From Pyruvatibacter mobilis (GTDB taxonomy: Bacteria > Pseudomonadota > Alphaproteobacteria > CGMCC-115125), in the NCBI RefSeq assembly GCF_012848855.1, contig NZ_CP051630.1, positions 2,583,501 to 2,647,500 on the forward strand: a stretch of DNA of 64,000 bases. The letters are read 5' to 3'. The stretch's first letter is position 1, and every line of letters begins with the position of its first letter. The notes beneath the pieces were generated by a model that saw only the letters and a program-made list of their open reading frames with translations, searched no databases and was not told the DNA's origin. Below, one piece after another: positions 1,407 through 6,573 of this stretch. The position numbers and the translations under genes are program-made.

Positions 1407-1502
1407 GTTGCGCGCCTCAGGGCTGCATCTGCGCACGCATGGTTGCATGGGGCGGCGGATACGGGTTTCCTAGGCGGGGGAAGACGAATCAAACACAGAG
1501 CC

Positions 1503-4079
1503 ATGCGCCCATCGCGTCCACACAACCGCGCCGCTGCCACATGTCTGCTTGCAGGCGGGGCGGGCATGGCCGCCTTGCTGCCCGCAAGCGCCCAGGCGCA
1601 GGGCACCACCCTCCTTGATCCGGGCCTTGATCCAAGTGCATCTGTGAGCACGCTGCTGGCCAGTGTCGCTGCCGGGGCCGTGGCGGTCGCCATCGGCGCC
1701 CTTTGGGCCGCCGGGCGGGCGCATAGGCGCAGCCGCCGCGACATGGCCGCCCGCGCCGAGCGGATGACCGAGCTTGAAACCAAGCTCGACAGCGCCGAGA
1801 GCATTCTCTCAGCAGAGCCGGACGCGGTCTTCATCTGGTCGCCGGAACGCACCGTGGCGCCCACTACCGGCGCCCGCACCTGGAGCCGCCCGCGCGTTGT
1901 CGGCTCCACCGCGGGACTGGCCGACCCGTCCTCCGGCGCGGTTGATTTCGATTTTGTGCTGACGCGGCTTGAGCCCGAGGATGCCGAGGCCCTGCGCAAC
2001 GGCGTCTCGCGCCTGCGCGAGCGCGGTGCGCGCTTCTCGCTCAACCTGCAGATGCGCGACGGGCGCACCTATGAGGCGGAGGGCCGCCCGGCGGGCGCCC
2101 AGGCCGTGTTGTGGATGCGCGACATCACCGGCGAGCGGGAGGAGGAATCCCGCCTGGTCGAGACCGCCCGCAAGGCCGAGCGCGAACGCACCCTGCTGAG
2201 CCAGGTGACGGACGCCGCCCCCTTCCCCGCCTGGCGCCGCTCGGCGGACGGCGCCCTCATCTGGGTCAATGGCGCCTTTGCGTCCGCCGTTGAGGCGAAA
2301 GACACCGACAGCGTCATCGATGAGGCGCGCGAGCTGCTCAATGCCGACACGCTCGCTGCGGCCGCGGCCCGCATCACCCGCGGCGAGCGCTACCACGAGC
2401 GCGCCAATGCGGTGGTGAACGGCGAGCGGCTGGTGCTCGACATTATCGAACTGCCGCTGGCCGACGGCGGCAGCGCCGGCTTCGCGCTCGACATCACGCC
2501 GCTGGCGGAAGCCGAGAACGACCTGAAGCGCCACCTCGAAGCCCATCAGGACACGCTCAACCGGCTTGCCAGCGCGGTGGCCATTTTCGGCCCCGACCGG
2601 CGCCTGCGCTTCTACAACCGCGCGTTCCAGAAATTGTGGGGCCTCGAGGAAAGCTTCCTCGACACCGAGCCCGGCGAGGGCGAGGTGCTGGAGACCCTGC
2701 GCGAATCCCGTCGCCTGCCCGAGCAGGCCGATTTCCGCGCCTGGAAGCAGCAGCGGCTTGACCTTTACACCCGCGCTGAACCCACCGACGAATTGTGGCA
2801 CCTGCCTGACGGCCGCACCCTGCGCGTCATTGGCCAGCCGCACCCGTTCGGCGGGCTGCTCTATCTCTATGAAAACGTCACCGACCAGCTGAAGCTTGAA
2901 TCAAGCCTCACCACCGCCCAGCACGTGCAGCTTGAAACCCTCAACAAGCTCTATGAGGGCGTGGCGGTGTTCGGGTCCGATGGCCGCCTCAAGCTGCACA
3001 ACCCGGCCTATCAGCGCATCTGGCATCTGGAGCCGGGTCAGCTTTCGGGCGAACCGCATATCGACCAGATCATCGAGTGGTGCCAGGGGCTTTACGACAA
3101 CGCGGATGAATGGGCCGAGATCAAGTCGCGTATCACTTCCGTCACCGATGAGCGCGGCACGCGCACGGGGCGGCTGCAACGGCCGGATGGCAGCGTGGTG
3201 GATTACGCCGCCGTGCCGCTGCCTGACGGCAACATGCTGCTGACCTATGTGGACGTGACGGATGCGGCCCTTATCGAGCGCGCCCTGCGCGACCGCAATG
3301 ACGCGCTGGAGACCGCCGACCGGCTGAAGAGCGAGTTCATCAGCCATGTTTCCTATCAGCTGCGCACCCCGCTCACCAACATCATCGGCTTCGGCGAAAT
3401 TCTGAATACGGAGCTTTTCGGCCCGCTCAACGAGAAGCAGGGCGAATATGCGGGCGGCGTTCTCAAATCCGCCACCGAGCTTCTGGACCTCGTCAACGAC
3501 ATCATCGACCTTGCCACCATCGAGGCGGGCGCCATGGCGCTCGACGTGGATGACGTGGACCTCAACCACATCGTCGAGCAGGTGTTCGAGATGACCGGCC
3601 CGCGCGCCAAGCAGGGCAAGCGCGTGCTGGCGCTGGAGGCCGCCCCCAATCTCGGCACGCTGGCCGCGGATTCCCGCCGCCTCAAGCAGATCCTGTTCAA
3701 CCTTCTGTCCAACGCCATCTCCTTCACCAATCCGGGCGATACCATCACCCTTGGCGGTGAGCGCGAGGGGCAGGAAGTGCGCCTGTGGGTGCGGGATACG
3801 GGCGACGGCATCAAGCCGGAGCACCAGGCCACCGTGTTCGACCGTTTCGAAGCGCGCGGCACGTCCGAAAAACGCCGCGGCGCGGGCCTCGGCCTTACTT
3901 TGGTGCGCAGCTTCGTCGAACTTCATGGCGGCTGGGTGTCGCTTGAAAGCGCCCCGCGCGAAGGCACCAAGGTGACCTGCCACCTCCCCACCGACCCCAA
4001 GGCGATCCCCGCCTCCCCCGAGGGCGGTCCCCAGGGCGGGTCACATCCTGAAACCACCGGCAGCGCGGCGGCGTCGTAG
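1503..4079 (+). CDS. divL: DivL-type PAS-domain pseudo histidine kinase (tyrosine in H-box)
   Basis: 858 residues from the ATG at 1503. This start puts an export-like hydrophobic segment at the N-terminus, where the in-frame ATG at 1443 adds a non-conserved leader. A second hydrophobic span lies around residues 50-70, then several PAS-like segments, a dimerisation helix and an HATPase domain (N-box near residue 730, VRDTGDGI near 763, GAGLGLTLV near 793). The H-box reads SHVSYQLRTPLTN: the phosphorylated His is replaced by Tyr618, the hallmark of DivL of Caulobacter. DivL works with DivK, PleC and CckA to control CtrA and asymmetric division. The position beside ahcY and upstream of tsaE fits divL in many alphaproteobacteria. 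The function is inferred from family knowledge; the Tyr substitution is read directly. Confidence 0.88.
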   Translation: MRPSRPHNRAAATCLLAGGAGMAALLPASAQAQGTTLLDPGLDPSASVSTLLASVAAGAVAVAIGALWAAGRAHRRSRRDMAARAERMTELETKLDSAESILSAEPDAVFIWSPERTVAPTTGARTWSRPRVVGSTAGLADPSSGAVDFDFVLTRLEPEDAEALRNGVSRLRERGARFSLNLQMRDGRTYEAEGRPAGAQAVLWMRDITGEREEESRLVETARKAERERTLLSQVTDAAPFPAWRRSADGALIWVNGAFASAVEAKDTDSVIDEARELLNADTLAAAAARITRGERYHERANAVVNGERLVLDIIELPLADGGSAGFALDITPLAEAENDLKRHLEAHQDTLNRLASAVAIFGPDRRLRFYNRAFQKLWGLEESFLDTEPGEGEVLETLRESRRLPEQADFRAWKQQRLDLYTRAEPTDELWHLPDGRTLRVIGQPHPFGGLLYLYENVTDQLKLESSLTTAQHVQLETLNKLYEGVAVFGSDGRLKLHNPAYQRIWHLEPGQLSGEPHIDQIIEWCQGLYDNADEWAEIKSRITSVTDERGTRTGRLQRPDGSVVDYAAVPLPDGNMLLTYVDVTDAALIERALRDRNDALETADRLKSEFISHVSYQLRTPLTNIIGFGEILNTELFGPLNEKQGEYAGGVLKSATELLDLVNDIIDLATIEAGAMALDVDDVDLNHIVEQVFEMTGPRAKQGKRVLALEAAPNLGTLAADSRRLKQILFNLLSNAISFTNPGDTITLGGEREGQEVRLWVRDTGDGIKPEHQATVFDRFEARGTSEKRRGAGLGLTLVRSFVELHGGWVSLESAPREGTKVTCHLPTDPKAIPASPEGGPQGGSHPETTGSAAAS

Positions 4080-4249: not shown

Positions 4250-4290
4250 GCGGGTGGGGGGCTGCTCCCGCGCTCTCACCCTGCTGCAAG

Positions 4291-4370
4291 GCGAGTAGGC
4301 CCCGGATCAAGTCCGGGGCACGCGGTGTCTTTCTCCGTCGCCCCGGACTTGATCCGGGGCCCACTCTCGC
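4291..4370. repeat. REP-like element, ccggatcaagtccgg family, copy A
   Basis: Two near-palindromic arms, gatcaagtcc on the left (4291-4318) and its inverted form on the right (4341-4370), are bounded by gcgagt and its complement and separated by about 22 bases. The same architecture recurs at 4974-5053, and a related one at 19781-19855. Translated repeats of this kind give spurious proteins with PDLIRGP-like strings. Confidence 0.8.
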
Positions 4371-4510
4371 CCGCGGCTCTTCTCGGCACCGGCCCCTCAC
4401 GGCCCGCCCACGCCGCACGAAAAACCATCCCCCACGAATGCCCGCCCAGCACGAAACCCCGCCCGCGGCCAGCGCCTGCGTCGGTTGAGACATGTCCCCC
4501 TAAGGGGTGC

Positions 4511-4590: not shown

Positions 4591-4973
4591 CGCGCGGATG
4601 GTTTCGGCGCGCGTCCCTTGCGCAGCGGGGTCCGGCGACTAGGCCGGAGGGATCCGCCGCAGACCCTTCTTCCACCGTCCACACTTTGGAACGTGCACGG
4701 ACGCGGTGAGGCCAGCTTTTTCAGGGCGTGACCGGGTCTGGGTCGTGGCCGCCTCTGCAACATGCGCGCGTTACTCGCATGTCCCGGCCCTGCGCGCTGC
4801 TTCCCCGTTCCCAAGGAAACGCCCTTCGCCGAACCTTCCAGGCATCCGCTCCCCCGCCCAGGACCGGACGGTCCGGCTGCCCTTGCGGCGGGAGGTGCAG
4901 GCAGTCTCTCACGGGGGCAGGGGGACGGGGATAATTTTTACGGGGACGACAACCCCTTAACGCCAACCGACAG

Positions 4974-5053
4974 GCGAGTAGGCCCCGGATCAAGTCCGGG
5001 GCTACGGAGAAAAACACAGCCGCCACCCCGGACTTGATCCGGGGTCCACTCGC
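4974..5053. repeat. REP-like element, copy B, at the left edge of the cassette
   Basis: Left arm 4974-5001 and inverted right arm 5026-5053, with the same boundary bases (gcgagt and complement) as copy A. The right arm is intact here, whereas the matching sequence at 6091 begins abruptly inside the arm. This indicates that an originally single element was split by an insertion. Confidence 0.82.
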
Positions 5054-5079
5054 GTCTCCCCTTGCCGCAGCGCCCGCGG
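5029..5079. repeat. 51-bp direct repeat, left copy
   Basis: 5029-5079 matches 6091-6141 at 49 of 51 positions (differences at repeat positions 26 and 32). The left copy keeps the REP context to its left (ccacccc before it) but has foreign, AT-richer sequence to its right (aaattttccg). Confidence 0.9.
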
Positions 5080-5163
5080 AAATTTTCCGATCGTGCTCCC
5101 TTATCATGCGCAGGAAAACGTCTCTTGCCGAACTTTCCACATTCGGCATCCCGCAGTTAAGCT

Positions 5164-5177
5164 CCTCCTTTTGGAGG
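5164..5177 (+). promoter_or_regulatory. Ribosome binding site inside a small hairpin
   Basis: cctcc (5164-5168), loop tttt, ggagg (5173-5177): the Shine-Dalgarno sequence of the gene at 5182 is exactly complementary to the five bases just before it, and lies 4 bases from the ATG. Translation could be controlled by opening this hairpin, but a 5-bp stem may be coincidence. Confidence 0.4.
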
Positions 5178-5181
5178 CAAC

Positions 5182-5400
5182 ATGGCAAATGATAGATGGC
5201 TAATGATCACTCCCCAGCAGGTTGGAGTGCAGGCCGACAAAAAATTCGGCATTGTCCGGCTTGGTCTTGATGTTTCCCACCCTGAGCTTGGTCTTGCTCC
5301 AGGACTAAACTTGGGAATTGCCTTGCCTCCCACTGAGGCACGGGAACTTGCGGAAACGATACTACGCAAGGCAAACGAAATTGAGGGGACGAAGCAGTAA
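5182..5400 (+). CDS. Hypothetical 72-residue protein in the cassette
   Basis: The start is fixed by ggagg four bases upstream of the ATG. The protein is small and soluble, with no signal peptide or membrane span. The second half contains a likely beta strand (GLNLGIALP) followed by a helix (PTEARELAETILRKANEIE). I do not recognise the family. Codon use is much less GC-biased than in the backbone. It precedes the HEPN-like gene by 150 bases on the same strand. A partner or antitoxin role is possible only by context, and it lacks the GSx10DxD signature of MNT antitoxins. Confidence 0.7.
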   Translation: MANDRWLMITPQQVGVQADKKFGIVRLGLDVSHPELGLAPGLNLGIALPPTEARELAETILRKANEIEGTKQ

Positions 5401-5550
5401 CGAGGGACTAAGGCCCGTCATAAGTCACCCTAGGGAAAAGTCCTGCTTGCCCGTGTTTCTTATCCTATAAGCTGCTTCTCTTAGGTAAAATCTCGGTGAT
5501 TTGTTCAGTACCCGCTTTTTAACTCCACACCTTTTAAGGATGATTCCTGA

Positions 5551-6063
5551 ATGGCTGACGAGTCCTCGCGCGTCAACACTAACAGACGCTTGTATGGGCA
5601 ATTCATAATTGAGTGGCAGATGTTCGAGTGCATTCTCGAAGTTGCGATAAGAGATATCTTGAAGATTTCCTATCTCCACGCACACACAGTCTTGGGCAGC
5701 CTCCAATTCAAAACGAAGGCGAGCATTGCCAAGGCGCTTTTGCAGCAACGTGGGCGGGAAAAAGATAAGAAGGCAATCCGCCTTATCAACAAGATCACTC
5801 GGGAGGCTAGGCGCAATGCACTCATACACTCAATCGTCTGGGAAGCTGACGACGGAATCGAGTTTGTCAAACGAGACGTAGACGACAAACTCAAAGTCCG
5901 CAGCAAAACGTTTCGGGGCAAGTTTGCCCTCGGAATGCACCTCATTCAGTTGGAGGCCGGTTGTTATGACCTCTGCCAACAACTGGGCATAACCGGCGCC
6001 TCACTTCACAGGTATCGGCAAGCTGCCGACAAGCTGTTAGACGAGACCCAAACACTACCTTAA
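5551..6063 (+). CDS. HEPN-like hypothetical protein in the cassette
   Basis: 170 residues, predicted mostly helical, with no membrane span. Around residues 84-93 it reads REARRNALIH. R88-N89-x3-H93 fits the Rx4-6H motif, with a polar residue after Arg, that marks HEPN RNases of toxin-antitoxin and abortive-infection systems. The motif follows a long helix (LINKITREARR), as in HEPN domains. The start has aagga 10 bases upstream. Codon use is AT-richer than in its surroundings. It stands alone with one tiny upstream gene inside a direct-repeat-bounded cassette, a defence-like setting. The HEPN assignment rests on one short motif and helix content, so it is moderate at best. Confidence 0.6.
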   Translation: MADESSRVNTNRRLYGQFIIEWQMFECILEVAIRDILKISYLHAHTVLGSLQFKTKASIAKALLQQRGREKDKKAIRLINKITREARRNALIHSIVWEADDGIEFVKRDVDDKLKVRSKTFRGKFALGMHLIQLEAGCYDLCQQLGITGASLHRYRQAADKLLDETQTLP

Positions 6064-6090
6064 GAGCCACTTTTTGGAGGATGCAATCTT

Positions 6091-6141
6091 CGGACTTGAT
6101 CCGGGGTCCACTCGCATCTCCGCTTGCCGCAGCGCCCGCGG
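6091..6141. repeat. 51-bp direct repeat, right copy
   Basis: Second copy of the 5029-5079 repeat. It starts abruptly inside the REP arm after cassette sequence (caatctt) but continues on its right into gctc, as does the related copy A near 4370. This is the reverse of the left copy and marks the right end of the insertion. Confidence 0.9.
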
Positions 6142-6157: not shown

Positions 6158-6191
6158 AAAAAACTACGCCCGCCGGATGTCTCCGGCGGGC
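6158..6191 (-). terminator. Intrinsic terminator after the ferredoxin gene
   Basis: Perfect 10-bp stem (6168-6177 with 6182-6191), loop tgtc. On the minus strand it is followed within four bases by six T (a6158-a6163 on the plus strand). It lies about 60 bases after the ferredoxin stop. Confidence 0.85.
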
Positions 6192-6252
6192 ACTGCTGAT
6201 TGTCTCTTTCGTCTGCCCCTTGCCGCATGGGCCGGGGCGCTGCCTAAGCCGC

Positions 6253-6573
6253 TTAGTGCTGGCTTTCCGGCATGCGGACGACCATGCCGTCGAGTTCCGG
6301 CTTCACCTTGATCTGGCAGGACAGGCGTGAGGTTTCCTTCACGTCCGGGGCGAAGTCCAGCATGGTCTGTTCCATGTCTTCCTTCGGCTCGATCTTGTCC
6401 ATGAAGGACTCGTCCACATAGACGTGGCACGTCGCGCAGGCGCAGGCGCCGCCGCAATCGGCATCAATGCCGGGGATCATGTTGTTGACCGCGCCTTCCA
6501 TGACGGACAGGCCATCGGCCACATCCACGACATGCTCGGTTCCGTCATGTTCGACATAGGTAATCTTCGCCAT
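6253..6573 (-). CDS. Adrenodoxin-type [2Fe-2S] ferredoxin
   Basis: 106 residues. The loop [15 protein letters not shown] supplies three cluster cysteines in the C-x5-C-x2-C pattern, and the fourth lies in SRLSCQI, as in putidaredoxin, adrenodoxin and terpredoxin. Such ferredoxins pass single electrons from an NAD(P)H ferredoxin reductase to cytochrome P450 or other oxygenases. The matching reductase lies 315 bases upstream on the same strand, so the two form a functional pair. gaggg lies six bases before the ATG. No P450 is in the window, so the terminal acceptor is unknown. A housekeeping role, for example in cluster assembly, is the alternative. Confidence 0.93.

Follow-up and report, generated by a model that had tools for sequence, protein, structure and literature searches.

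The window, by which we mean the whole 64-kb stretch of DNA that was analysed, belongs to a genome of one contig with 3,333,914 bases (3.33 Mb), and it contains an interval in which a histidine kinase gene and a ferredoxin gene face each other (Table 1). An earlier note on this DNA had described 51-base repeats, identical at 49 positions, that bound 1011 bases of AT-richer sequence in the interval, and both the repeat search of the window and the GC content bore this out. The two copies are spaced by 1062. The GC content of the enclosed DNA compares with 0.654 for the window, and the composition shifts at both repeat edges. Identity between the copies stops abruptly at both edges; the copies end at the same base, and their flanks are unrelated. 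A 21-bp partial repeat (5157-5177 against 6060-6080, 81% identity) is possibly a chance match.

Table 1. Features between the kinase and ferredoxin genes, in window coordinates
Feature	Position	Strand	Remarks
PAS-domain histidine kinase gene, left neighbour	1443..4079	+	Pfam PAS_7, HisKA, HATPase_c; convergent with ferredoxin gene
REP dimer, CGTC motifs inside	4289..4374	.	near-copy of the 4969-5058 dimer, 81% over 83 bp
Dispersed non-coding repeat, core	4657..4904	+	nine copies in genome; also at the locus in relatives
REP dimer, intact	4969..5058	.	right-hand REP supplies start of left 51-bp copy
Left 51-bp direct repeat	5029..5079	+	REP body and 25-bp tail; REP 5′ flank normal
Low-GC insert	5080..6090	+	1011 bp, GC 0.498; missing at the locus in G001 and G003
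Orphan ORF, 72 aa	5182..5400	+	no relative found
Probable HEPN-like protein, 170 aa	5551..6063	+	R88, N89, H93 invariant, E26 nearly so
Right 51-bp direct repeat	6091..6141	+	REP broken inside 5′ stem arm
Terminator-like hairpin of ferredoxin gene	6166..6193	-	hairpin
2Fe-2S ferredoxin gene, right neighbour	6253..6573	-	Pfam Fer2; orthologues G001 93%, G003 92%

The insert, or cassette, encodes two ORFs on the same strand, of 72 and 170 aa. Neither matched an entry in Pfam, PHROGs or PADLOC, and no recombinase was found among them, in agreement with the earlier note; in NCBIfam only the 170-aa protein had matches, all far below the cutoff. Donor searches with the cassette proteins against plasmids, phages and viral contigs, with the 170-aa protein against genome_contigs and with the cassette DNA against plasmids returned nothing, and the cassette protein was missing from 141 relatives. 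The insert is foreign-looking DNA that was most likely acquired horizontally. Unlike a transposon with a target-site duplication, it has neither a transposase nor, at its ends, terminal inverted repeats. A DDE transposon was rejected on these two grounds and because 51 bp exceeds the known target duplications, which to our knowledge are all shorter.

Three genomes of the same genus (G001-G003; the genome studied here is G000) were compared, and the site was covered only by G001 and G003; the G002 contig stops ~200 bp past the kinase gene, short of the insert site. In the named genome collection, a Candidatus Phaeomarinobacter MAG, probably the same record as G002, was the only close match. In G001 and G003 the kinase gene is orthologous and the dispersed repeat and the ferredoxin gene are kept, with a gene pair encoding ArsR and SRPBCC (AHSA1) proteins in the place of the cassette. 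Thus, the interval is variable. G000 has no close ortholog of the relatives' ArsR gene (best 43%). The earlier note had suggested that close relatives be checked for a cassette-free site with one uninterrupted 51-bp copy; the cassette is indeed missing in G001 and G003, but no uninterrupted copy was found and neither interval is empty, both holding the ArsR and SRPBCC pair.

The dispersed repeat, which had no Rfam family match, has its other copies in G000 near C1:530861, 681853, 912269, 1400884, 1570149, 2075286, 2385036 and 3016088. The longer copies reach ~0.5 kb, and the copies outside the window are ~79% identical to the window copy and mostly 90-94% identical to one another in the aligned parts. 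G001 and G003 have copies of this repeat too. One copy in G003 adjoins a low-GC DUF4262 gene (L128 1964-2494), and the G001 counterpart has no such ORF.

The 170-aa protein

A class-wide search with the 170-aa protein returned weak relatives, three of which had a common RNxxxH motif, and a profile built from these relatives found matches in 16/398 sampled genomes of the phylum. In an 18-member alignment of the window protein and 17 remote relatives, G16 was invariant together with the residues named in Table 1. With R88 and H93 conserved in all members, the family has the HEPN Rx4-6H motif. A first structure model, built without an alignment, was poor, and the model built with the alignment was mostly helical with a mean pLDDT of 80.7. 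A fold comparison with the model gave only generic helical matches, none of them above noise in the PDB and HEPN folds not among them, which does not speak against a HEPN helical-bundle fold. None of the curated HEPN models matched the window protein; some of its relatives weakly matched HEPN nuclease models (Csx1, Cas13a), among other families.

The 170-aa protein resembles the HEPN superfamily (Anantharaman et al. 2013, PMC3710099) in its RNxxxH motif, in the mostly helical structure predicted for it and in the weak Csx1 and Cas13a matches of its relatives. It differs in that the window protein matched no curated model and in that no MNT antitoxin gene lies beside its gene. We consider it a HEPN-like protein and a probable RNase, and the motif and the remote relatives suggest that it may act as a toxin or a defence-type RNase. 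The relatives tested had no direct repeats around their genes.

REP units and the broken copy at the right junction

The 51-bp repeat consists of most of a CGTC-type REP and a tail of ~25 bp. About 36 REP units, the 51-bp pair included, were surveyed in the regions returned by similarity searches of the genome, and their consensus was read as CCGTCACCCCGGACTTGATCCGGGGTCCA. This consensus has a terminal CGTC-like tag, a stem of 8-9 bp, a loop of 4-5 nt and a CCA tail; most close pairs of units are arranged with CGTC outside (HH), and there is no dedicated transposase. The CGTC superfamily of REPs predominates in alphaproteobacteria and has no known transposase, its members not being associated with transposase genes (Di Nocera et al. 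2013, PMC3733652). The units here share with it the CGTC tag, the 8-bp stem, the 5-nt loop, the CCA tail and the formation of dimers, as well as an alphaproteobacterial host and the lack of an associated transposase, but differ in that here the REP body and tail stand as a direct repeat around foreign DNA. The intact dimer next to the insert forms a single long hairpin (DNA fold -36.4 kcal/mol, z -9.2). Both dimers in Table 1 have CGTC inside, the rarer arrangement, and they flank the dispersed repeat. Rfam microRNA matches on the REP dimers were far below gathering scores and were rejected, as they look like palindrome artefacts.

The earlier note had each 51-bp copy keep its REP context on the outer side. 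This is true of the left copy, whose 5′ flank is normal; the right copy is followed beyond 6141 by the region of the ferredoxin terminator and no REP sequence. Among the REP copies at ≤3 mismatches, a 5′ flank was recognisable in all but the right copy, where the cassette runs directly into the stem. In G001 and G003 a REP with that same 5′ flank adjoins the ferredoxin terminator. Since the right copy alone lacks the flank and both relatives have a flanked REP at that position, these results favour insertion into a REP.

The earlier note had gone further and proposed that a single REP was split by an insertion that duplicated 51 bases. A REP is broken at the right junction, the DNA beside it is foreign-looking and the cassette is missing in both usable relatives. 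The duplication itself is not proven, because the searches gave no uninterrupted copy and other genes occupy the site in the relatives. The note had also considered that the repeat might be too common for the pair to be telling. In random sequence 4e-16 such 51-bp pairs are expected, but the repeat belongs to a genomic family of which ~36 units were surveyed, and among the 630 pairs that they form the one around the insert ranks top at 49/51 with two unlinked pairs following at 48/51. In addition, same-strand REPs 0.7-1.1 kb apart recur elsewhere in the genome. Thus, identity alone is insufficient to show a duplication.

Possible routes of insertion

The locus looks like a fairly ordinary gene acquisition by an unproven insertion route. 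We tentatively favour a capture at a REP, by short-homology or break-repair recombination, of ~1 kb of foreign DNA with the orphan ORF and the HEPN-like gene, which left the 51-bp REP flanks. Horizontally acquired 1-kb DNA would have entered a variable region between convergent genes and would join a REP internally at its right end. The hairpin-prone and presumably fragile REP dimer may have broken or recombined and, by way of short homology or break repair, taken up the foreign DNA with 51 bp of REP-derived sequence left on each side, so that neither a transposase nor a dedicated recombinase would be necessary. Such a break repair, with its duplication of 51 bp, is inferred; were a REP indeed split in this way, foreign genes could still gain entry at REPs that have no transposase. 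Capture is supported by the GC contrast, by the lack of the cassette protein in 141 relatives and the ArsR and SRPBCC pair found instead at the locus in G001 and G003, by the 5′ flank that the right copy alone lacks and that the REP at this position has in both relatives, and by the common end point of the copies, their unrelated flanks and the very stable hairpin of the adjacent dimer. It is also supported by the lack of a Y1 transposase in the four genomes of the genus that were searched, by the lack of a known transposase for CGTC REPs, by the instability that REP dimers are said to cause (PMC3733652) and by E. coli O-antigen loci, where REP positions coincide with recombination points (PMC3158064). 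It is weakened by the lack of an empty site, by the closeness of 49/51 to the unlinked 48/51 and by the recurrent ~1-kb REP spacing, which make two pre-existing REPs possible.

In this close rival, which we regard as possible though doubtful, two REPs of the same subfamily were in place and the stretch between them was replaced, perhaps when a larger transferred fragment recombined at REPs or at the neighbouring genes; the repeat would then be older than the cassette, and there would have been no duplication at insertion. The unlinked REPs with up to 48/51 identity and the frequent same-strand REPs ~1 kb apart agree with this, as does G003, in which REPs lie at both ends of the kinase-ferredoxin interval with other genes between them. 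A REP-coincident exchange has been proposed for the O-antigen loci (PMC3158064), where REPs also lie at the edges of exchanged DNA and no recombinase was found; there, however, large gene clusters with homologous flanks are exchanged, and here a 1-kb cassette. Two independent REPs need not share their end points to the base and have unrelated sequence beyond them, nor need one of them be truncated in its stem like the right copy.

Site-specific integration in trans is a lesser rival and an unlikely one; a small circle with a 51-bp attachment sequence would have entered a REP by means of a recombinase encoded elsewhere. Islands in tRNA genes have one intact and one truncated target copy, as is seen here, and the two mismatches could correspond to attP/attB differences. 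However, the insert encodes no recombinase, the searches gave no other element with such ends, plasmids, phages and viral contigs contained no copy of the cassette, and the tested relatives of the protein are without flanking direct repeats. We likewise think it improbable that CGTC-type REPs in general serve as attachment sites at which an unknown host recombinase inserts small integrase-less cassettes and leaves ~51-bp repeats.

The earlier note had also envisaged mobilisation in trans, which could mean that a RAYT (REP-associated tyrosine transposase) moved the REP-flanked unit as single-stranded DNA. The REPs do have the hairpin-plus-tag layout of RAYT substrates. Unlike for a RAYT-mobilised REPIN or REPtron, no Y1/RAYT transposase (PF01797) was found in G000-G003, that is, in the complete genome and three congeners, by a search that was positive in 5/14 control genomes, and transposase genes do not accompany CGTC REPs (PMC3733652). 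This route is therefore very improbable and largely refuted, unless the enzyme has since disappeared. IS elements that target REPs are, like the O-antigen loci, a precedent; they carry a transposase and have no direct repeats or short ones, reported as 2-6 bp (PMC1525189). In both cases foreign DNA lies within a REP, but the insert studied here has no transposase and its repeats are 51 bp long.

A second interval with foreign-looking cargo has a bPH-domain gene on one side and, convergent with it, a gene read as 3-hydroxyacyl-CoA dehydrogenase on the other (L084 2947-4353 in G000, L153 1835-3385 in G001 and L154 1773-4058 in G003). With it, the locus reveals an uncharacterised HEPN-like family and two convergent intergenic regions with species-specific foreign cargo. 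In G000 REP dimers enclose the cargo of the second interval, a toxin-antitoxin-like pair that resembles HigB/HigA and a Hypoth_Ymh gene of low GC. In G001 it holds a deaminase gene that PADLOC assigns to dCTPase (E 1.7e-157), which is anti-phage-like, and in G003 a dCTP deaminase-like gene and orphans. At ≤3 mismatches no REP was found at the interval in G001 or G003, although their cargo is defence-like, so the suggestion in the earlier note that REPs may act as a landing site for small defence-type genes was not supported as a general rule. It is thus unlikely that REPs give rise to such hotspots, and foreign cargo and REPs appear to gather independently in convergent intergenic regions.
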